Assembly (NCBI GenBank): GCA_903813345.2
Contig: CAIIXF020000005.1
Span: forward strand, 22,015,375-22,079,374
Direction of reading: 5' to 3'
DNA: 64,000 bases
DNA from: Owenia fusiformis
Taxonomy: Eukaryota; Annelida; Polychaeta; Sabellida; Oweniidae
The notes under the pieces are model-generated. The model did no database searches and was not told where the DNA came from. It saw only the letters and a list, made by a program, of their open reading frames with translations. The position numbers and the translations under genes were made by a program. Positions 39,851-51,625 of this stretch are shown here, in pieces (position 1 is the first letter of the stretch; the number at the start of each line of letters is the position of its first letter).

Positions 39851-40324
39851 TAGAATATCCCTATTTTTTTACTTGACAGGTATGGTTTATTTTGAGTTCT
39901 TTCATATAAAAGCGCTGTGCAAGTCTGATTTTGAACGATCAAAGTTTTCAGAAAATTTTGCATTTTGTCTGTATTCACCTTTCCACAAAGTCAGCTCATG
40001 AATATTATAATGAGCTGCTTAAAAATCTGTGACGTCAATGAGGGAAACTTTTTCCTGCAAAAAACAAATGCAATTGAGTTTACATGTAAATGGTTGATTG
40101 CTGTAAGTTTTACCTCTTCAAATGTGCAAGTATTCAGTAAATTATGGACAGATTTTTATTGAACGTCAAATTGACATTTATTTACGCCTTCTGAGCGAAT
40201 TAAATATTAAATTTCTGTTCATAATGAGTAAATAATTAGAAGAGAATTACTCCCAGTCAGTTTTCAATCATGATAGGAACTGGATGTAAACAGGTGAAAT
40301 TATCATAATCATTAGGTCACCAAC
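39851..40324. other. No gene recognised
   Basis: No feature apart from the start of the target duplication at 40316. Confidence 0.35.
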
Positions 40325-41240
40325 CAAACTCCCGTGCAGTGATAGTGGAGAGGTTAAGCAAATACGGTTTTTCAAAACGTATACGTAAACGCAAAGTATT
40401 GAATCAACATAGGATTGTATCGCTTTAGTCTACTTCAGATACCCGTTCAACTTCAAAGTTGCGTGTTTAGAACGGGAGATTTAGAAATTTCACGTTGCTA
40501 TCAACGGGAATCATTATACTCATGTCTGTTGAATACTATCCTTGCAATTTTGATTTCGATGCAGAGTATAATTCTTTCTGAAGAAGATGATGTATGTTAC
40601 GCATGATTTAACTCCAATAATCTTACGAAACGAGCTCGTTTAAAATATGTATTAGAAAACCAGCTATTGAACTTCATCAATGGGATACTATGTAATCATT
40701 ACAAGCTATGGTGTAGTCTGAACAAACACTAGAGCTGAACGGCTATTTATGTGTGAACTCTACATGTATTTGTATAGGGCCGAATGATACGTTTAAGTTG
40801 CGTTTTGGATTTTATACGGTAGCTTAACCTCTCCAGTATCACTGCGGCGGGCAGGTATCTCACCGTAAGCATGGTAACTTCGTAATAAACAACTGACGTG
40901 ATTGGTTCTAGTCCCATGCTCAGGTCGCGTGATTGTTAAATTTAGACCATTTCATTGGTTGAATTGCGCGTATTAACTGATAAACAACACGTGCTGTAAA
41001 CTATTATCAACACAACTTTTACTCAGAATTCCTTCCGCGGTGATTTCTTCTCATATTTCAATAATTTTGAAATATTTTGACAAAATAATGTTTGGGGAAC
41101 ATTTATGAATACATATTTTATAAGTTGTGTGAAAATTGACCACATATTTGATGAAAAAGGGAACTATTTTCCCCAAATTTTGGGGATTTTCTTCGTCTGC
41201 CCACCGCAGTGTCTATACCGAGACACTGCATGGGAGTTCG
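40325..41240. mobile_element. 9-bp-TSD element, copy A (with nested element)
   Basis: Ends CAAACTCCCGTGCAGTG and its inverted near-copy, flanked on both sides by GTCACCAAC (40316-40324 and 41241-41249). The inner text ('gggcaggtatctcaccgtaa', 'gaattccttccgcggtgatt', 'ttccccaaattttgggga') is the inverted copy of the element at 50333-50757. Without the 492-bp insertion at 40345-40836 it would be about 422 bp. Each terminal repeat holds a palindrome 'gcagtg...cactgc'. No coding capacity. The class is probably MULE-like, from the 9-bp duplication. Confidence 0.85.
40345..40836. mobile_element. Element nested in the terminal palindrome of copy A
   Basis: Ends 'gtggagaggttaagc' and 'gcttaacctctccag', TA on each side (40343-40344, 40837-40838). 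It splits 'gcagtgata' from 'tatcactgc', the two arms of the terminal palindrome, at its centre. The interior has a short frame but no recognised domain. Confidence 0.75.
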
Positions 41241-41249
41241 GTCACCAAC

Positions 41250-43296
41250 ATTATAACATGTCTCTCGTGCATAAAAATATATAGATAGACAATCTATTTA
41301 ACTTAATCTTCAGTGTCATTTGATGAATGACCTGTTCAAATTAACATTTGCTCTTTTTCATTAAATCATTGACTTCACTACTCCCATAATTCAATGAACT
41401 AAACGATTACTTCCTATTTATTTCTGCAAGTCATATCAGATCGTATCTTGAATATGTTATACTTGAAAACATCGGAATATGGAATTGATATCTTGGAGGA
41501 GCGTGACATATACATGTATATATTCCAATGTATATGTCACATATATTTCCCGCTGCATATCTCCCGATCCAAATATTCCTGGTAAAATGTTTTTTATTCA
41601 GTGTATGAACATGTCAGTCAATTTGTTAAAATATCTTGCTAAAGCAAAACTGTCAAAATAGATCCAGCAGACCGTAAAATTTTTCTTAACCAAAATGATG
41701 ATGGATTTCTCGAAAATAATGAGAATGAGAACGCTTAACAGAAAACAAACCTGGATATGCAGGGTGTCCTATAACTTCTCTTGTGCAACCTCATTTTTCA
41801 TAGGATGACTTAGTTGTGATGATCGGTTTTGAATAATGATCACTGGGAAGATCTGGGGAAAGAGGCTATACCATATAATGTTTATTGATGATATGTTGAC
41901 ATTGCTGATCATTATTGACATCGCTGATGGCGAATAAATACCAAAAGGTAACGCTTTGCGTGAATGTCACTCGTGATGAATTTCTGATGGACCTTCTCAC
42001 TACGACATATTGACCATTTAACAAGATATTGTATGACCACTATCAGATAATAAAACCGAGTTGTTTACATTTTTTTGTTTACAATCACATGAGACATGTG
42101 AGCCCGGGTATGTGAGGCTGATCTGAGGAGTCTTAATAAACAACAGTTCTGTCACTTAAAGGTTGAATAAATAGTGCAGAGACGTATCCAACGATCATGG
42201 TCCTGGTGTCAATATATATCGAATTTTGAATATTTCATCAAGGCTAACATCTATTTTCATTAGCTACAAAGAAAACCCCCGAACGTACCTAATTTCTGCC
42301 GATATGCACAATCACTGGCATCCTAAATCCCCGGAAATCTTCTCCCGACATCGACAGAAAAAATGCTCACGTACCTTTTAATGATTTCCCGGTTATATTG
42401 TCATTGGATTCCAGCCCCGTTTTCACCTAACGTTCTATCCAACATTCTGTTTCCTTTTGCGTGTCAAGAAGACCTTGAATATGGTCAGATTTAAGGTGTT
42501 TTAGTCTTAAGATTTTTTTGATTTTTCTTCGTCAGTGGATCAGATTAACTGCAAGAGTCGCCGGTAATAGACCGTCGACAACGGTCATATCGTGTACCAT
42601 GCATACAGTTATATCAGACAACCGCGGTTATACTGTAACATGCGGTCTTACCTAGCTCAGCTGCAGCAAGAATTTTAAATGGCGGAGATTTAGAAATGTT
42701 TCAAAAAACAAAATGCGGGACGTCCAACCTTTCAATTGCTTATTTAGAAGTCTATTTACAAGTCTGATTGGTGGTATTCGTTGACAAGTGCATATACTTT
42801 AAGACATTAGGCCAAACGTTGCACTAATAGCTCGGGAAAGGTAAAATGACTCCCAAATTTCTTCTATAGTCTTTATTCAACCTTTAAATGATTAAATCAA
42901 ATTACTTAAGATTCGGAATGAAAGTGCCCCGTCCATATTTTATATTTGATTAAAAATAATTAGTGCATTGGGCAAATAGAATCCTTTTTATTGCAGTTAA
43001 TTCAAAATATTCCTATGCTGGCTGTACTAATTCTTCAAAACTTTCTACCATTCACTTCATTGATTTGACTCATTTGCATACAACCAATCAGCGTGCCTGA
43101 AATTATCGATTTTCTTTACTTTGTGGAAAGGTGAATAGTACTAAATAAACTACAGGTCAAAATATATGCACATTTGATTTTGATCATAAGGAGAAATAAT
43201 TCACTGGAGTAATCTTCATGTCATTCATGTGATGTAAACTTGTCTCTTTATATTAGTAACATAAAAGTTCATGTTTATCTGTTCATTTGTTTCTAG
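41250..43296. other. Upstream region or intron of the glycine-rich protein gene
   Basis: No repeats with clear ends and no exon recognised in 2 kb. A branch-point-like 'tagtaac' (about 43254) and the pyrimidine tract before 43297 belong to the next exon's acceptor. Confidence 0.4.
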
Positions 43297-43343
43297 GGGG
43301 GCGCAATATGGCTGAAGAACATCTCTGGTATGACAGTTACTGA
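43297..43343 (+). other. Exon 5' edge with an overlapping short frame
   Basis: The acceptor 'gttcatttgtttctag' ends at 43296. A second ATG (43308, strong Kozak aatATGG) opens MAEEHLWYDSY and stops at 43341-43343, overlapping the Met at 43330 in another frame. If transcription begins in this exon it would be an overlapping upstream ORF that reduces translation of the main frame; if an upstream exon joins in phase 0 it is irrelevant. Confidence 0.4.
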
Positions 43344-43845
43344 TGCAGATATGGAGGACATTTCTAACCCCAGACTCGAGCTCGCAGTTCATATAGGCAC
43401 TAAGACCATTCAGATGGGAGCTATGATGGGCATGCTAGCAATTGGGCCAATCACACAGCTTGTCAGAGGACCTAGAACAATGCAGGCGATAGCAACTACT
43501 GCTCTTAAATTTGGCACAAATGGTGCAATTATCGGTGCAGTAGCTGGCCCTATAATAACATATGCGGCATCGAGGAAATTTGAATATGAAAATTTTTACG
43601 ACCGCTCTTACAGGATTCGATACAACAGGGGGCAAGTGATTACAGACCGTATGTGTTATTTTGGTATGGCTGTTGGTGCGGGGGCAGGATATGTAACAGG
43701 ATTTGGAATACTTCCTTGTATGGCACTAGGTATTGTGGTTGGCACAGGAGGAAGTGTATTTGCACCTGGTAGGATGGGCAGTGACGAGGCTAAGCCTAAG
43801 AAGAAATCTGCCTCAGAAGAAACCCAAGAAAGAAAGGATGCATAA
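43330..43845 (+). CDS. Glycine-rich small membrane protein, possibly Tim17/22/23-type
   Basis: A 171-residue frame, clearly the best coding stretch of the window. Three hydrophobic, glycine-rich segments (about residues 30-45, 62-80 and 108-144) carry GxxxG spacing: 'GAIIGAVAG' and 'GMAVGAGAG'. A charged loop 'RKFEYENFYDRSYRIRYNR' lies between, and a Lys/Glu-rich tail follows. Repeated GxxxG and a C-terminal charged tail recall the Tim17/Tim22/Tim23 family of mitochondrial inner-membrane translocases; this is a tentative fold guess, not an identification. The exon probably starts at 43297, after 'tttgtttctag', and the frame is open from there (GGAIWLKNISG then the Met), so the true start may be in an upstream exon. 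AATAAA follows the stop directly (43846-43851). Confidence 0.7.
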   Translation: MTVTDADMEDISNPRLELAVHIGTKTIQMGAMMGMLAIGPITQLVRGPRTMQAIATTALKFGTNGAIIGAVAGPIITYAASRKFEYENFYDRSYRIRYNRGQVITDRMCYFGMAVGAGAGYVTGFGILPCMALGIVVGTGGSVFAPGRMGSDEAKPKKKSASEETQERKDA

Positions 43846-43851
43846 AATAAA
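43846..43851 (+). terminator. Polyadenylation signal AATAAA
   Basis: AATAAA begins at the base after the TAA stop of the glycine-rich protein. If used, the 3' untranslated region would be only 15-35 bases long, ending before the transposon relics that start at about 43934. Confidence 0.5.
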
Positions 43852-44190
43852 CCACATACATAGTGTCCAAATGTCAATTCATGAAAGAATTAATTTTAAG
43901 GTTAATGAACATTTTGTGAGTGAAAAATATTGATTTTTGAACATGAGACATGAAGCTATCAAAATCGTTTATTATTGTTATACAGGGCGTATCAGAAAAA
44001 CGCAACAAGTAGTTATCTCGTAAAATCACAAAACTAGTGATGACTACATCAATTTCATTCAATGTACCATAAAGTCACGTCTCTCCTCTTTGCAATGATG
44101 TGTCATTCATTCACATGTGGTAATGGTTGGGTGAGAAATCCTTCCATTGGCACATTGGGTCAAAATCAGTTCTGGACCAAGTTTTAGATA

Positions 44191-44440
44191 TTGCAAAAAT
44201 CAGTGCAAGGGCTAAGTGACAATGGAAGTTCCCCTGACTTGAATTGTTGTGACTTTCTCTTTTGGAGCTATCTCAGGAGCATCTGTGCTCACAATTTCTC
44301 CGCCAGATATTGCAAAACCTCGAGAAAGAATTGCCCATGGGCTGCTTTTCTCTGCTTTTATCCACAGATGACTCAGGGCTGAACCATGCATGACCTGGAC
44401 AGATGAGCGGATCTTTATGTGCAAGGAAGTGGTGGCAATT
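44191..44440 (+). pseudogene. Mariner-like transposase C-terminal relic, unit 1
   Basis: 'DNGSSPDLNCCDFLFWSYLR' matches the mariner-type motif aPDLnp.DFfLWgylK, whose first Asp is the last catalytic acidic residue. The frame decays after 'KTSRKNCPW'. Downstream, 'MHDLDR.ADLYVQGSGGNLE' resembles the family's final '...R...C....GghlE' text. An identical relic lies in unit 2 (44779-45030). Confidence 0.6.
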
Positions 44441-44778
44441 TGGAGGGGTAAAAGATGTATTCTTGCAAGAGTATGAGTATGAACACTTTACTGTCTATGC
44501 CACACCTGTCATACCTTCTTCCAATTTTTGAACATGAGACATGTATAGCTATCAAAATCGTTTATTATTGTTATACAGGGCGTATAAAAAAACGCAACAA
44601 GTAGTTATCTCGTAAAATCACAAAACTAGTGATGACTACATCAATTTCATTCAATGTACCATAAAGTCACGTCTCTCCTCTTTGCAATATATATTCATTC
44701 ACATGTGGTAATGGTTGGGTGATAAATCCTTCCATTTGTGCAGTGGGTCAAAATCGGCTCTGGACCAAGTTTTAGATA

Positions 44779-45030
44779 TTGCAAAAATCAGTGCAAGGGC
44801 TAAGTGACAATGGAAGTTCCCCTGACTTGAATTGTTGTGACTTTCTCTTTTGGAGCTATCTCAGGAGCATCTGTGCTCACAATTTCTCCGCCAGATATTG
44901 CAAAACCTCGAGAAAGAATTGCCCATGGGCTGCTTTTCTCTGCTTTTACCCACAGATGACTCAGGGCTAAACCATGCATGACCTGGACAGATGAGCGGAT
45001 CTTTATGTGCAAGGAAGTGGTGGCAATTTG
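44779..45030 (+). pseudogene. Mariner-like transposase C-terminal relic, unit 2
   Basis: Same 63-residue frame as unit 1, with the identical motif 'SSPDLNCCDFLFWSYLRS'. Duplicated as part of the 591-bp tandem block, so not an independent insertion. Confidence 0.6.
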
Positions 45031-45115
45031 GAGGGGTAAAGGATGTATTCTTGCAAGAGTATGAGTATGAACACTTTACTGTCTATGCCACACCTGTCAT
45101 AACTTCTTCCAATAG

Positions 45116-46162
45116 CCCATATGCCCCTTGTACAGACTTTCGCAGTGTTTAAAACTTGGGTCCGAGCTGAATTTTGCCCCACTTTTCAAAATTAATGATT
45201 ACCTGGCCAGCCATGACTCTCTGTGAATGAATGATATTCCATTGCAAAGAGGAGTAATTTGGCTTTTTGGTACATTGAATGAAAAGGATGCAGTCATCAT
45301 TGGTTTTATGTTTTCTTCCAATATTGCATCAGGCTCCGCACACTGACTTTTGCAATGTTTATAACTTGGTCCCAAATGGAATGATTAACACGCCCAACCA
45401 TGACCAAATATCAATGAATGATATATCATTGTAAATGGGTGACACATGGCTTTATGGTGCATTGAATGAAATCAATGCTGTTTTCACTGGTTTTGTGCTT
45501 TTCTGAGGTAAAAATCTGTTGCACTGTATACTGTACATGTAAGGGGGCTGGAGGGGTTAAATATATAATAATGAAATAAACTTTGTTTTTGGACATCATA
45601 CCAAACAAACAGCATTTTAGGGACTGACCATTTGATCTTGAGGTTTTGAATATTCTGGGCCTAAGTCTTGATCCAAGTAAGCCCAATGTTCTCTTTCCAA
45701 CTATGTTTCAGAATACATACACTTTCAAACAAGAAATTCTGGTGGGAGGAAAAAAGGCCCCTAGATCTGATGGCCCAAACATTATGACTGAAAAACATTA
45801 TTGATTTTTAAAGAATTAATATTTAGTTATACTTGTATATATGCAAACATATTTTTTCATAGAAAATGTGTTACCTAAATAGCAAAGCATTTCAATGTAT
45901 AAATTGATTGATCATATTTAAATATACAGTTTATGAGGGTGTAACACTCTATTCTGTATTATGGATATATTACCCAAAACAATAGTACAAGAATGTACAT
46001 GTGTTCAAGGAGATTTTTTGTATATTATTTTTGAATACAAATTTAAATGTCTCAAATATAACCTGTTGTTGAAGCTTAAGGTTCACTGGAGCTAATTAAT
46101 GTATTGTTTTGTATATAGTTTATTGTTGACCTATATGTTTCCTCATGATAAAAAATCCATTT
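45116..46162. other. Diverged relic copy and AT-rich spacer
   Basis: 45215-45500 holds an inverted, diverged copy of the same relic's terminal text ('ccattgcaaagaggagtaat', 'tggtacattgaatgaaa'). From about 45560 on, no feature was recognised. Confidence 0.45.
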
Positions 46163-46163
46163 A

Positions 46164-46283
46164 CAGGGTGGCAAAAAATGGAATTTTCCTCACATGTGCC
46201 TTGATATTTGTCACATGTGTACATCATTCAATTTTGTACCAGTGTATAGATATCTTTTATTGACTCTCTGATGTCTGAATTAG
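46164..46283 (+). mobile_element. Fragment of the CAGGGTGGTC mariner-like family
   Basis: 'cagggtggcaaaaaatggaa', 'gtacatcattcaattttgta' and 'gactctctgatgtctga' match the start of copies at 29740 and 36196. The fragment ends abruptly at the LINE, probably by LINE insertion. Confidence 0.55.
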
Positions 46284-46284
46284 C

Positions 46285-47310
46285 ACCATGATGTTCAAGT
46301 TCATATGGGCAAAAGGGAAATTCAAAGAGGAGGACCTTAAAAAGGTGCCCAATAAAGTAAAAAGAGATATTTTAGTACAAGGTTATGATTATGGTGGTTT
46401 AAAAATGATTAACTGTAAAGACTTACAAATTGCATACATGATTCAATGGATTAAAAGATTAACAGAGAATGACGATGGCCACTGGAGAGCTATACCAGAG
46501 TATATGTATGGAAAATTAGGTAAAAAGTTTAGTGTTCTCAACAGCAATATAAGTGCTGATCAGTTGAAATGAGCATTTTCTATAAAAAATTATTATTTGC
46601 GTGGCTTGAGAATAGCAATTATACAGATGAATCTATAATATGGAATATTGTATTAAGTAGATATCCCTTGTACTTTCACAAGTGGATAGAAAAGGGTTTA
46701 ATCTACATATCAGATGTTGTTGTGAATGGACACTTAAAACCATATGAGGTAATTTCTGAATTAATAGGAAAAAATGCTGAAACATTAATGCAAGTATAAC
46801 ATTTTAAGAGCTTGTTTAAATCAAGAGAGAATTCATATGTATCGTAATATAGAACCCAGTAAAACACTAGTATTTCGAGGGATAAAGATTGAAAAATTAA
46901 CATCACAGAAAACCAGGAATAAGCTTGTAAAAGAAAGGCAGTGTGATGTACAATTTAATGATTTGACTATTGGTTCAGACATTTGGAATCAGCTATTTAA
47001 ATGAACGTCTGGTACCTACACTGGTCTTTTAAGTATCCAATGGAAAATTTTCCATGGTGGTTTATTAAAAAATATAACATAGAACAATCTGATTTATGTA
47101 AACTATGTAATGAAGTTGATAATATTGAACACTTTTTTATACATTGTAATGCAATCAAAAATATTTGGAAAGATGTAGCTTTGAATGATAATGAGAAAAC
47201 AGGAATAGGATAGGAATATTAGATCAAAAGTTATTATACAAGTCACTTGTAATAAAGAAAACTATACATGACTTTAAATTTCAAAGAATGAGAGAAAAAT
47301 ATATCTGTAA
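46285..47310 (+). pseudogene. LINE 3' end: L1/Tx1-like ORF2 C-terminus
   Basis: First frame: 'MMFKFIWAKGKFK', 'YDYGGLKMINCKDLQIAYMI' and 'WIKRLTENDDGHWRAIP' match the post-RT text of L1/Tx1-type ORF2 (lf.FiW.....v....e.GGl...di.....a....Wi..l......W). A later frame (47001-47213) has 'SDLCKLCNEVDNIEHFFIHC', the terminal CCHC-like motif (C..C...vdt..HlF..C), then 'IWKDV'. Two frameshifts (near 46570 and 46800-47000) separate the parts. A 5'-truncated, inactive insertion. Confidence 0.75.
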
Positions 47311-47339
47311 TGTTTGAATATGAAAAATATGTTAGAAGC

Positions 47340-48200
47340 ATTGTCAGACTTGCCAAACTAAAATGAAAAATTTTAGGGAGATTTAAAAAAAATTGTGGTA
47401 CTTTTACGGAAATTTTTTTCAAAATCCGGTAGTTTTTGCATTTTTTGGGGGTTTTTTGAAAAAAAAACGGGAGTTTTACGGGAGATTTTTGAAAAAAAAC
47501 GGTAGTTTTTACGGATGATTTAAAAAAACAGGAGTTTTTGCGGTAAATTTAAAAAAAACTGGAGTTTTTACGGGAGATTCTGAAAAAAACAGGTGTTTTT
47601 ACGGTAGATTTTGAAAAAATGTGAGTTTTTACGGTAGATTTCTGAAAAAACGGGAGTTTTTACGGTAGATTTTGAAAAAACGAGAGTTTTTACGGCAGAT
47701 TTTTGTTTAGCACCATGTAAAAACAAAATGTATTCTCCCGACAGAAGTATGACAGAATATGAACTGGCCCCGTTTGTGGACATTTGGTGTGCAAACCTAT
47801 ACCGAACTGATCGCAGAAAAGCAATTTGAATCATGGGATTGAAGTACTTTTAAGTTATTTATGAAAGTATCGATAGTGAACCATGGGAGCCAATCCTTCT
47901 TGGAGTAAAAGAAAGAAGCGTGCCTGCAATAATCAAGGTCACAAATTTGTCAAATTCCTTTTAAATATGGTAGATTTCGACAGCAAAAAACGGAGATTTT
48001 ACAGGAGTTATACCAAGAATACGGGAGATTTTACGGGAGTTATACCAGAAAACGGGAGATTTTACGGGAGTTATACCAAGAATATGGGAGATTTTACGGG
48101 AGATTTCAGCAAAAATACGGGAGAAAACGGTACAGGAGTTTGGTATTTTTTACGGAAAAAACAAAAAATTTACGGGAGATTCCTGTAAAAAAACGAGAGG
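47340..48200 (+). repeat. Minisatellite 'acgggagattttgaaaaa' in two blocks
   Basis: Units of 30-37 bp ('gagtttttacggtagatttt', 'acgggagttataccaagaat') fill 47370-47700 and 47980-48190. The 280 bp between them matches the repeat at 20945-21130 in reverse. Frames over the array (for example 47883-48188) only read the repeat. Confidence 0.7.
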
Positions 48201-48404
48201 TTGGCAAGTCTGATTGTTGAGATTGAGAAAATGTATTTAAAGTTTTTGAAAAATTGCATTTTGAAATATTGATTTGTATGCTAATGAATGATAGAAATAA
48301 ATTTTTAAAAAAGACTCTGATGTTGTTGCAATGACAAATTAGTCACTACAATATACAAAATTAAACTAAGACTAAACTAACTACTGAATAGAAAATATTC
48401 AAAG

Positions 48405-48690
48405 TTGCGTCAGTCCGTCCGTCCGTCAACATTGACCTCACAAATTAAAACTGCTATTCGGATTGAGTCATATCCACATTCATTTTATGCATATTCATAA
48501 TGCCTTTTTGACCTATCATTGCCATTTCCCAAGTTAGCCTGGTTTCTGAGAAACTGCTGATTTTCTGTAAATACTAGACATTTTGTTGAAGTAGAACTTT
48601 CGAATAACTTGTAGTAGTTGCTGTATATGCAACTTATGTCCTCTGAAAGATTTCAAAGCTCTTGGAATTACAGTTTTTGGTGTTTACTCT
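48405..48690 (+). repeat. Dispersed repeat with gtcc microsatellite, copy 2
   Basis: Short (gtcc)n, then the same text as 37940-38195 ('cggattgagtcatatccaca', 'gtagtagttgctgtatatgc'), lacking about a dozen bases near 48555. Confidence 0.7.
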
Positions 48691-48869
48691 ATAAAACTTG
48701 ACAAAAAGTAGGACTTAGTCATTTTCAGGAAACTTTGTCATGTATAAAGTCAATGGCAGGTTTTGAGATTGACAAGTTTCTCAAAGTTTGCCTTGTACGT
48801 ACTTGATCATTTCTTGCAATGAATTACATCATTACTAGATTTAAGCATTCCCTACATATTGCTCAATAT

Positions 48870-49625
48870 CACGCCCGGTGATTGTACAAAATGGATGGAG
48901 GGGGGGGAGCATCTTCTGCAAGAAAACTCAACAAAACAACAAAACACTTTTTAAAGTTACTTTCCATGCGTTATACAAAAAAAATCGAAATAAATTAATA
49001 TTGGATGGAGTGGGAGTGGATGGAGGGGGGGGGGGGAGTTATATGTCTTTAAGATGGAACAAATTCACAAGAACTCGTGTATTTGAAAAAACTAAACTCA
49101 GTACCCCAGTAAGAAACTGGATCTCTGGAGAATGAAAAATGGGAAAATTTGGAGTCATAAAAATAAATTCAAGTAGCATGTCTTATCATGTCTTATATAT
49201 ACGTTATTCCCCCCCCCCCCTCCATCCACTCGCCCTTCCATCCAATATTAATTTATTTCGATTATTTTTTGTATAACGCATGGAAACTTAGTTTAAAAAG
49301 TGAGCAATGTCATTAGTATTGTGATAATAACGTCCCTTATACCTATTTACTACAGGTCGTGTAGACCATTGTTGCCCGATTTATAGCAAAAACATTGACT
49401 TTTGCACGTTGGTGATGATGCGCCTTTTTTAATAGATCTCATATCTTAGAAGGGTATCAGTTCAAAAAAAATACTAGATGACCTAACATATTTTGCCATG
49501 CACTGCGCCTATTCATTTGGCAGTTCAGTTTTCTCTTGAAAAAATAAATCTTCCAAATTTGTTGAGTTTTCTTGCAGAAATTGCCCACTTCCCCCTCCAT
49601 CCATTTTGTACGATCACCGGGCGTG
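48870..49625. mobile_element. TIR element with CACGCCCGGTGATTGTAC ends
   Basis: Left end 'cacgcccggtgattgtacaa' plus 'aatggatgg'; the right end is the inverted copy ('gtacgatcaccgggcgtg'). A second inverted pair inside ('aaattaatattggatggag' against 'ctccatccactcgcccttcc' and 'aatattaatttatttcgat') flanks poly-G/poly-C runs. 756 bp; no coding sequence. Confidence 0.7.
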
Positions 49626-51625
49626 AGTTCAAATCTGATATTAGTTTTAGGAATCGACCTTTACTTGACCTTCAGCGACCTTCGAAAGGTCAAAAAAGTT
49701 TAATTTTTCAAATTGATTTTTGGATGTAAATTTTGGTCAGCTTAATCAAATAAGACACACAGTGATAAATATCGCACTTTGAAGAGCAATCTGGCCACCA
49801 TGCAATTTACCCAGAATGGCCAAAACCTAATCAGACCTTGGCACTAGTCTGCTCTTGCATCTGTAAACATTTCAAGTTGACAAGGTTAGCGGTTTTCCTG
49901 CAATTTTGATGACAAGAATTTATTTGTAGTCTTGAACTTTGGGAAAATTTAGATAACATTGTTTGTGACCTAATTTGATGACCTTTGACCTTGAAAATTT
50001 TCAGACCTCAGTAGGTCTTTTGTAATTAAGCTGACCTAAATTTAAATCCAAAATATCAATTTAGAAAATCAAATTTTTGACCTTTTCAAGGTCACTGAAG
50101 GTCAAATCTGAAATCTAAGGTCAGATTTGAACTTCTGAGAACTTGTAGATGTTTTTAAAAAAAATTTGGTCAATTTGGAGCAAGTTGAAAAATTCAAAAT
50201 AGCCGCCAAATTGAAAAATTCAAAATGGCCACCATGTAATTCAGCCAGCATACCCAAAACCTAATCAGATCTTGGCAATAGTCTGCTCTTGCATCTGTAA
50301 AAATTTCAAGTTGAACGGATATAAGTGGTTTTCGAACTCCAATGCAGTGTCTCGGTATAGACACTGCGGCGGGCAGATGAAGCAAATCCCCAAAATTTGG
50401 GGAAAATAGTTCCCCTTTTCATCGCATATGTGGTCAATTTTCACACAACTTATAAAATATGTATTCATGAATGTTCCCCAAACATTATTTTGTCAAAATA
50501 TTTAAAAATTATTGAAATATGAGAAGAAATCACCGCGGAAGGAATTCTGAGTAAAAGTTTTGTTGATAATAGTTTACCGCCCGTGTTGTTTATTAGTTAA
50601 TACACGCAATTCAACCAATGAAATTGTCTAAATTTTACAATCACGCGATCTGAGCATTGGACTAGAACCAATCACGTCAGTTGTTTATTACGAAGTTACC
50701 ATGCTTATGGTGAGATACCTGCCCGCCGCAGTGATATTATCACTGCACGGGAGTTCGAGTGGTTTTCCTGGAATTTTGATGACAAGATTTGTTGAAAAAT
50801 TCAAAATGGCCACCACGTAGTTTACCAAGCATGCCCTAAACCTAATCAGATCTTGGCACTAGTCTGCTATTGCATGTATAAAAATTTCAAGTTGAACAGG
50901 TTAGCGGTTTTCTTGGAATTTTGATGACAAGAATTGATTTGTAGTCTCAAACTTTGAGAAACTTGGATAACATCATTTGTGACCTAGTTTAATGACCTTG
51001 ACCTTCGACCTTGAAAATTTCACTTTTTCAGACCTCAGTAGGTGTTTTGTAATTAAGCTGACCTATAAATTTAAATCCAAAATATCAATTTAGAAAATCA
51101 ACTTTTTTGACCTTTTCAAGGTCACTGAAGGTAAATGAAAGGTCAAATTTGAAATCTAAGGTCAGATTTGAACTTCTGAGAACTTGTAGATGTTTTTAAA
51201 AAAAAAATTTGGTCAATTTGGAGCAAGTTGAAAAATTCAAAATGGCCGCCAAATTGAAAATTTAAAATGGCCACCATGTAATTCAGCCAGCATACCCAAA
51301 ACCTAATCAGATATTGGCAATAGTCTGCTCTTGCAACTGTAAAGATTTCAAGTTGAACGGATAAGTGGTTTTCCTGGAATTTTGATGACAAGATTTGTTG
51401 AAAAATTCAAAATGGCCACCACGTAGTTTACCCATCATGCCCTTAACCTAATCAGATCTTGGTACTAGTCTGCTCTTGCATCTGTAAAAATTTCAAGTTG
51501 AACAGGTCAGCAGTTATCCTGGAAATTTGATGACAAGATTTGGTTTATGTGCCGCCCGCCCGCACGCCCGCCCAACAGCACAAGACGACGACAATATAGC
51601 ACTTTTTCAAAGTGCGATAAAAAGT
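49626..51625 (+). repeat. Tandem ~576-bp 'gaccttgaaaatttt' repeat, interrupted
   Basis: Text such as 'cctcagtaggt.ttttgtaat', 'aaatccaaaatatcaattta' and 'gacctttt(c)aaggtcactg' appears at 49910-50330 and again at 50920-51360. Copies of 'cctaatcagatcttggca' recur at about 49825, 50255, 50840, 51300 and 51445. The block ends with a 'gcccgcccgcacgcccgcc' tract. Element B (50333-50757) interrupts it. Confidence 0.65.
50333..50757. mobile_element. 9-bp-TSD element, copy B (uninterrupted)
   Basis: 425 bp, ends CGAACTCC and GGGAGTTCG. Flanked by AGTGGTTTT on both sides (50324-50332 and 50758-50766); related repeat modules nearby read through this site without the insertion ('agtggttttcctggaat'). 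Terminal palindromes: 'gcagtgtct' with its complement around a 6-base loop near 50344, and 'gcagtgatattatcactgc' at 50728-50746. Same family as 40325-41240, opposite orientation. Confidence 0.85.

Follow-up and report, generated by a model that had tools for sequence, protein, structure and literature searches.

The window, a 64,000-nucleotide stretch of DNA from the annelid Owenia fusiformis, contains two copies of a short element with palindromic termini, which raises the questions of what kind of transposon they represent and how such elements were moved. The first copy, a 425-bp non-autonomous element (MITE), was delimited by genome-wide sequence matches to positions 50333–50757 of the forward strand. 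It lies between two exactly matching copies of the 9-bp target-site duplication AGTGGTTTT (50324–50332 and 50758–50766; no strand is assigned to duplications). Its terminal inverted repeats are composite; an outer repeat of 17 bp (CRAACTCCNNTGCAGTG) and an inner repeat of 15 bp (CACTGCGGCGGGCAG; 50362–50376 on the forward strand and 50719–50733 on the reverse strand) are separated by a spacer that is unequal at the two ends of the element. Because the last 6 bp of the outer repeat are the first 6 bp of the inner repeat in inverted form, each end is a local palindrome: GCAGTG-TCTCGGTATAGA-CACTGC on the left (50344–50367) and GCAGTG-ATATTAT-CACTGC on the right (50728–50746), both on the forward strand.

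The second copy spans positions 40325–41240, and an earlier note on this DNA took the two for full copies of different size. It is instead the same element, 424 bp long (40325–40344 plus 40837–41240), reversed and interrupted. Its right end, which retains the outer repeat together with one palindrome half (40325–40344, reverse strand), is followed by a nested 492-bp insertion at the palindrome centre (40345–40836, forward strand) and by the remainder of the element (40837–41240, reverse strand), whose left-end palindrome is intact at 41206–41229. The insertion is unrelated to its host and is a member of another inverted-repeat family present in high copy number; a genome search gave 1017 candidates, and the 40 that were scored are 98–100% identical. 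It lies precisely at the junction of GCAGTGATA and TATCACTGC, thereby splitting the right-end palindrome, and it can be explained without any duplicated flanking bases. The CRAACTCC ends described for both copies were seen, and each copy is enclosed by its own exact 9-mer, the second by GTCACCAAC (40316–40324 and 41241–41249). Exact matches to AACTCCNNTGCAGTG within the window number only four, which are the ends of the two copies. A palindrome had been described in every terminus; three are present and the fourth is the one split by the insertion. Loops that are unlike between the two ends and conserved between copies were found in most copies, with exceptions.

The end motif CRAACTCCNNTGCAGTG has 655 exact matches (330 + 325) in the 498-Mb genome and the reversed-pattern control has none; the inner repeat CACTGCGGCGGGCAG has 491 exact matches, again with none for its control. 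A genome search with the 425-bp element yielded 449 candidates, and the 40 that were scored are 95–100% identical to it and all reach to within 7 bases of both its ends. Exact duplications of 9 or 10 bp flank 39 of 46 near-full-length loci (36 of 9 bp and 3 of 10 bp, with 39 distinct sequences). Among the other seven loci, three have duplications with one mismatch, one has a duplication with four mismatches in an ungapped comparison, and three have unresolved ends. Mispaired flanks, used as a control, matched in 0 of 1806 cases. The target sites lack a strong motif, and the centre of the duplication is somewhat A/T-rich. Median divergence from the majority sequence is 1.4% over 39 aligned sequences; the mean of 2.8% is inflated by one misaligned locus (L031, 52.6%), which leaves the median unaffected. 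Nine longer loci owe their length to unrelated inserts or nested copies that interrupt this element, and the longest stop-to-stop frame in these nine forms is at most 117 residues. Loci L046 and L047 were assessed from the alignment rows that have them as subject. L113 and L115 represent an older subfamily. We conclude that the 425-bp element belongs to a young non-autonomous TIR transposon family of hundreds of copies. The family of terminal palindromes and 9-bp duplications that had been proposed from the window holds on dozens of copies, and copies devoid of either feature are few and damaged. In the literature searched, whose coverage was partial, we recognised no description of this family.

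The inverted ends, the 9-bp duplications and the many near-identical copies were observed directly, and the MITE was very probably moved in trans, by cut-and-paste, through a transposase encoded elsewhere that makes a 9-bp staggered cut in the target. Movement in trans and a source in a superfamily with a 9-bp stagger would place Mutator/Rehavkus-type enzymes first among the candidates and Merlin second. An autonomous relative with the same ends encoding a MULE transposase, which the earlier note had anticipated, was not encountered among the forms examined, for which end pairs were listed over the first 53.6 Mb of contig 1. For L043, the largest form, a Pfam scan at E ≤ 1 detected nothing in five of the six frames; one frame of the L043 insert and one of the L045 insert (2 of 12 possible frames) were also empty at E ≤ 0.1. 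Four pattern searches looked for the MITE ends in combination with another interior or another spacer. The first gave three matches, all examined (L036, L113 and L114); the second gave seven, of which five were examined (L028, L031, L047, L113 and L115); the third gave 23, of which seven were examined (L038, L040, L041, L133, L134, L135 and L138); and the fourth gave 65 rows, of which 58 were examined. None of the examined matches is autonomous; they are mutated or nested copies, the older subfamily (L113, L115) and ultrashort forms, and L134 contains no recognisable MITE copy.

That a Mutator/Rehavkus/Foldback-type (MULE) transposase drives the family has an even chance. MULE duplications measure 8–11 bp, and those of Rehavkus in Arthropoda and Annelida 9 bp (PMC6446971). 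The 9-bp and occasional 10-bp duplications fit this range, and the lack of a strong target motif and the somewhat A/T-rich centre also count in favour. Against it, MITE ends are absent within ~4 kb of the genome's eight PF10551 and five PF21056 hits, all contained in loci examined to ~4 kb on either side, although weak relatives may escape such a search. Moreover, the delimited MULE loci L103, L105 and L107 have internally repetitive ends starting with GG and 8-bp duplications. A 9-bp-duplication candidate at L104 was judged a chance match because its right boundary lies inside an open frame. In the MULE-like and Merlin-like loci of the main set, the best match to the end motif carries 4 substitutions in 17 positions, and L163–L165 have no match within 3 substitutions. 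L162 has matches with 2–3 substitutions, all inside a 65-bp minisatellite; they were judged to be chance, the 11 units counting as one event, and the neighbouring hit was judged a decayed host-type exon. The Mutator-like assignment made in the earlier note is supported by the length of the duplication and by no protein. Merlin duplications measure 8–9 bp and Merlin ends start with GG. A Merlin (IS1595-like) transposase fits the duplication length, and the genome has four short PF12762 hits; nevertheless, a match to the end motif better than 4 substitutions in 17 is absent within ~2.5 kb of all four, and we regard this source as improbable.

The MITE was compared with several known systems. Foldback (FB) inverted ends are long and internally tandem-repetitive, whereas each end of the MITE is one palindrome and a tandem array is absent. 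Tm1, a root-knot nematode family of the Mutator/Foldback type, produces mostly 9-bp duplications with no target consensus, and shares with the MITE this type of duplication, composite terminal repeats, nested inserts and MITE-like members, typically below 0.5 kb (PMC3169594). The Tm1 terminal repeat as described differs in consisting mostly of a variable number of 13–15-bp tandem repeats, and a Phantom-like transposase is encoded by one of the Tm1 classes (PMC3169594); the MITE has one palindrome per end, and no transposase was found for it. Rehavkus, described as an outgroup of MULEs, resembles the MITE in its 9-bp duplications, its terminal repeats of at least 26 bp and its occurrence in annelids; it encodes a PHD-finger transposase and has a minisatellite ahead of its 3' end (PMC6446971), features that were not seen in the MITE. 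MITEs in general, such as the hAT family Mar (PMC3517528), are likewise short and coding-free with inverted ends; this family differs in the local palindrome at each end, with its unequal spacers, and in the 42–53-bp class described below. Bacterial REP palindromes are also very short, interspersed palindromic units; REPs are tied to tyrosine transposases (PMC2817692), whereas the 9-bp duplications here are as expected from a staggered DDE-type cut.

What is new here is an ultrashort class: some members of the family measure only ~42–53 bases and still resemble separate insertions. The partial literature search gave no recognised description of eukaryotic transposons so short. When end pairs were tabulated over the first 53.6 Mb of contig 1, the 40 exact pairs comprised 4 at 45–51 bp, none at 52–401 bp, 28 at 402–444 bp and 8 at 800–5119 bp. 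In total, 45 ultrashort loci of 42–53 bp were collected, with exact 9- or 10-bp duplications in 33. A perfect 40-bp palindrome (L116) was left out, as it has no duplication and adjoins interior sequence of the MITE. Among 14 contig 1 loci examined for an unpaired end (L136–L149), seven have no convincing partner end (L136, L137, L139, L140, L142, L144 and L145). Loci with one altered end provide intermediate sizes: L113 (238 bp, duplication with one mismatch), L153 (351 bp, exact duplication) and, without a clear duplication, L141 (~206 bp) and L147 (~302 bp). Ordinary internal deletion therefore also happens.

The ultrashort elements keep the outer repeats and lack the inner arms, and each loop combines parts of the left and right spacers, fused at junctions of many kinds. 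In the predicted lowest-energy single-strand fold of the MITE, end pairs with end and the two spacers lie opposite each other (z = -5.5; none of 100 shuffles equally stable). A deletion spanning this spacer bubble would take out the interior, and 42–53-bp elements with the outer repeats would remain. Full-length insertions may have lost their interiors in place by such structure-driven, or by microhomology-driven, deletion and never have moved as ultrashort units, a reading to which we give slightly less than an even chance. The chimeric loops with their many junctions, the predicted fold and the other internal deletions agree with it, as do the loops changed in place within one host-repeat group (L082, L083 and L120–L123), where common flanks enclose unlike loops. 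Nonetheless, a 53-bp junction, TCTCGGTATAGACACATAT, shows no visible microhomology and is shared by four loci whose flanks are unrelated, which suggests that the ultrashort forms themselves moved. A 45-bp form at six loci, one with an altered end, and one 51-bp junction in three copies, of which two sit in separate copies of one host repeat, 4 bp apart and oppositely oriented, also speak against deletion in place. If deletion in place recurred, it could look like movement of ultrashort elements.

That the 42–53-bp elements, consisting of two 17-bp end repeats and a hairpin loop, transpose independently, with the end palindromes helping to create them, falls likewise just below an even probability; the step in which several ultrashort elements moved again as units has about an even chance. 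It is very unlikely that an inner CACTGCGGCGGGCAG-bounded element inserted into an ultrashort palindromic one, the ultrashort elements being the empty originals. With TATA as its duplication, cutting out the inner part does yield the 45-bp form, but the inner unit was never seen alone, and this reading would leave it to chance that outer and inner repeats are complementary over 6 bp. Among the 82 inner ends listed for the first 53.6 Mb of contig 1, an exact outer repeat is missing from the vicinity of 13; in 12 of these the outer repeat is altered, and a further insertion cuts through the remaining one. We disfavour an independent inner element; inner-only copies with their own duplications were not seen.

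The 6-bp palindrome arms may serve as paired half-sites for a protein, the spacer being little constrained. Arm spacing varies (6, 7, 11, 12 and 16 bases), which counts against a rigid dimer, since such a protein would hardly tolerate this variation. If the ultrashort forms, which lack inner arms, moved, the local end palindrome is dispensable for transposition and its reading as a binding site is weakened.

That the spacers are unequal although the ends otherwise match, and that one tiny size class is over-represented, suggests a palindrome-driven route to extreme miniaturisation. If the 42–53-bp elements do transpose independently, their size would approach the physical minimum at which both ends of a cut-and-paste transposon can be held by one transposase complex, and copies that moved as units would provide a natural series for the minimal end distance allowing synapsis and cutting. 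If the deletions took place in situ instead, the family would be a record of deletions at palindromes in a eukaryotic genome.

The window, part of contig 5 in an assembly of 498 Mb and 525 contigs, contains two insertions that the earlier note had read as full copies of one transposon. This reading stands for the 425-bp element at 50333-50757 (plus strand), which is flanked by the duplications AGTGGTTTT. The second insertion, at 40325-41240 (minus strand) and flanked by the duplications GTCACCAAC, had to be reinterpreted as a reversed 424-bp element together with a 492-bp foreign repeat. The foreign repeat (40345-40836) splits the right-end palindrome of this copy into its halves GCAGTGATA and TATCACTGC, and is a member of a separate high-copy family, with 98–100% identity among 40 scored of 1017 candidates. 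Members of this inverted-repeat family (the window copy and L088-L101) are about 490 bp long with ends GGAGAGGTTAAGC. No target duplication was seen by eye in the window copy and the 14 fetched copies. All 15 copies have YANT before the core, and 14 of them have ANTR after it, a pattern that looks as if insertion were blunt, between YA and TR. Both flanks of the 425-bp element (50200-50320 and 50770-50900) carry, by eye, near-copies of TTCAAAATGGCCACCA...CAAGTTGAAC, thus placing the element within a direct repeat.

A genome search with the 425-bp element yielded 449 candidates; the 40 scored are 95–100% identical to it and fall at most 7 bases short of both ends. The end motif CRAACTCCNNTGCAGTG, the pattern of the outer terminal repeat, has 655 exact matches genome-wide and its reversed pattern has none; the corresponding counts for the inner repeat CACTGCGGCGGGCAG are 491 and 0. 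Duplications were assessed in 46 loci fetched with flanks, comprising 39 scored hits besides the window and 7 loci picked from the end-motif matches. The 9-bp duplications claimed from the window copies recur exactly in 36 of the 46, and a further three loci have exact 10-bp duplications. Three loci show one mismatch at 9 bp, L034 shows four mismatches ungapped and one when read as 10 bp, and L012, L033 and L035 each have one end beyond the script's resolution. Every one of the 39 exact duplications is different, and a mispaired control, which set left flanks against the right flanks of different copies, found no pair among 1806 within one mismatch. Across 38 hits plus the window copy, one of them misaligned, copies differ from the majority sequence by a median of 1.4%, and the family has therefore been active recently. 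An older member, L115, retains 76% identity across 404 bp.

Each end comprises a 17-bp outer repeat, a spacer and a 15-bp inner repeat. GCAGTG closes the outer repeat and CACTGC opens the inner one; each terminus therefore forms a local palindrome, as had been proposed. Read outside-in at both ends, 97 spacers, from intact-arm ends alone so that arm variation is invisible to the tally, comprise TCTCGGTATAGA (43), ATATAT (34), ATAATAT (6), TTAGTCTTCAACATAA (2) and 12 forms that occur once, including TTTGGATTAGA and TTTTGGAATAGA of older members. The single-strand DNA fold of the element exceeds all 100 shuffles in stability (z = -5.5). The predicted lowest-energy fold pairs the left end with the right end, leaving the spacers unpaired and facing each other except for a 3-bp hairpin in the left spacer. 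Local hairpins and end-to-end pairing are alternative folds, either of which may form in the cell.

Sizes were surveyed on the first 100 end matches among those listed, all from the first 53.6 Mb of contig 1. The 40 adjacent facing end pairs measure 45, 45, 51 and 51 bp, 402-444 bp (28 pairs) and 800-5119 bp (8 pairs). Twenty ends lay outside facing pairs, and 7 of the 14 that were fetched (L136-L149) have a plausible partner end, at 42, 51, about 206, about 302, 406, 423 and 424 bp. Off the contig 1 survey, L113 is 238 bp long with a one-mismatch duplication and L153 is 351 bp long with an exact one. Intermediate sizes do occur, though few of the copies seen have them. Nine loci of greater length (L042-L050) are the same element broken by unrelated sequence, or two copies nested; they hold no stop-to-stop frame longer than 117 aa, and the frames tried from the largest insert gave no Pfam match. 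A sequence ending CTGACTGTG adjoins the element's end region three times (L042, L086 and L125), and another transposon may favor this region as a site.

The ultrashort set was assembled from a pattern search (30 loci), a second pattern (13 loci) and the unpaired contig 1 ends L143 and L148. It contains 45 loci of 42-53 bp, L116 left aside; the patterns reach up to 53 bp, with 54-60 bp beyond the genome-wide search. A typical member keeps both outer repeats, has neither inner repeat, and has a loop joining left and right spacer; in L148 one outer repeat is short by 5 bp. Duplications are exact at 9 bp in 31 loci and at 10 bp in 2, and carry one mismatch in 7 (L065, L076, L078, L080, L121 and L123 at 9 bp, L117 at 10 bp). 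The five loci devoid of a duplication (L062, L085, L086, L122 and L125) all have an altered or cut end. By flank similarity, L062/L081/L127 and L082/L083/L120-L123 are single insertions borne by host repeats, and merging such groups leaves 38 separate insertions (flank comparison excluding L143 and L148). L116 (C6:38687332-38687371) was rejected as an ultrashort form, being a perfect 40-bp palindrome of two right ends with no duplication; it adjoins interior sequence of the element.

The chances that ultrashort elements moved independently as such appear evenly balanced. The junction TCTCGGTATAGACACATAT, by eye free of microhomology between the two spacers, is shared by four loci whose flanks are unrelated (L064, L069, L070 and L085; exact duplications in three), and the loop of the 45-bp form is shared by six loci, of which five have exact duplications. 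The 51-bp form is present at L052, L053 and L143; on our reading of the alignment, L053 and L143 lie in opposite orientations, 4 bp apart, in separate copies of a single host repeat (86% identity over 118 bp). However, many ultrashort junctions occur once, structure-driven deletion might prefer one junction repeatedly, and loops change in place. The last point comes from the single host-repeat insertion at L082, L083 and L120-L123, in which the loop has 13, 9 or 8 bases by copy, differences that would record change at the palindrome center.

The driver, presumably a transposase moving the element in trans, was sought as a MULE- or Merlin-type gene; the element's 9-bp stagger fits MULE, Rehavkus or Merlin. 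Profile matches in the genome numbered 8 for PF10551, 5 for PF21056 and 4 for PF12762, all within fetched loci. The autonomous relative with the same ends that the earlier note suggested looking for did not emerge from 11 of these loci, where the best end-motif match has 4 substitutions of 17. Among four further MULE-like loci, the motif came within 3 substitutions in L162 only, in a 65-bp minisatellite of 11 units with ATCTCCATTGCAGTG (L162:3738-4456); this resemblance was judged to be chance. The minisatellite adjoins a ZSWIM-like match. At L103, L105 and L107 (C12:4481934, C80:12651 and C12:5760351), MULE genes with frames of 599-617 aa are bounded by GTCAACTCGGACCCTA-like repeat units. Their ends start with GG and are internally repetitive, with 8-bp duplications, an arrangement reminiscent of Foldback/Galileo architecture.

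The partial literature coverage yielded no description recognized as this family. Among the published descriptions compared, the nearest relative is the Mutator/Foldback family Tm1, in which 9-bp duplications predominate and some members are MITE-like (PMC3169594). Rehavkus is listed as having 9-bp duplications, with arthropods and annelids as hosts (PMC6446971). The element is of an ordinary kind, a MITE, with two uncommon traits. Its ultrashort class is solid when taken as a set of insertions, with independent mobility at about even odds; firmly established are its composite ends, in each of which a palindrome spans a spacer that differs between the two ends.
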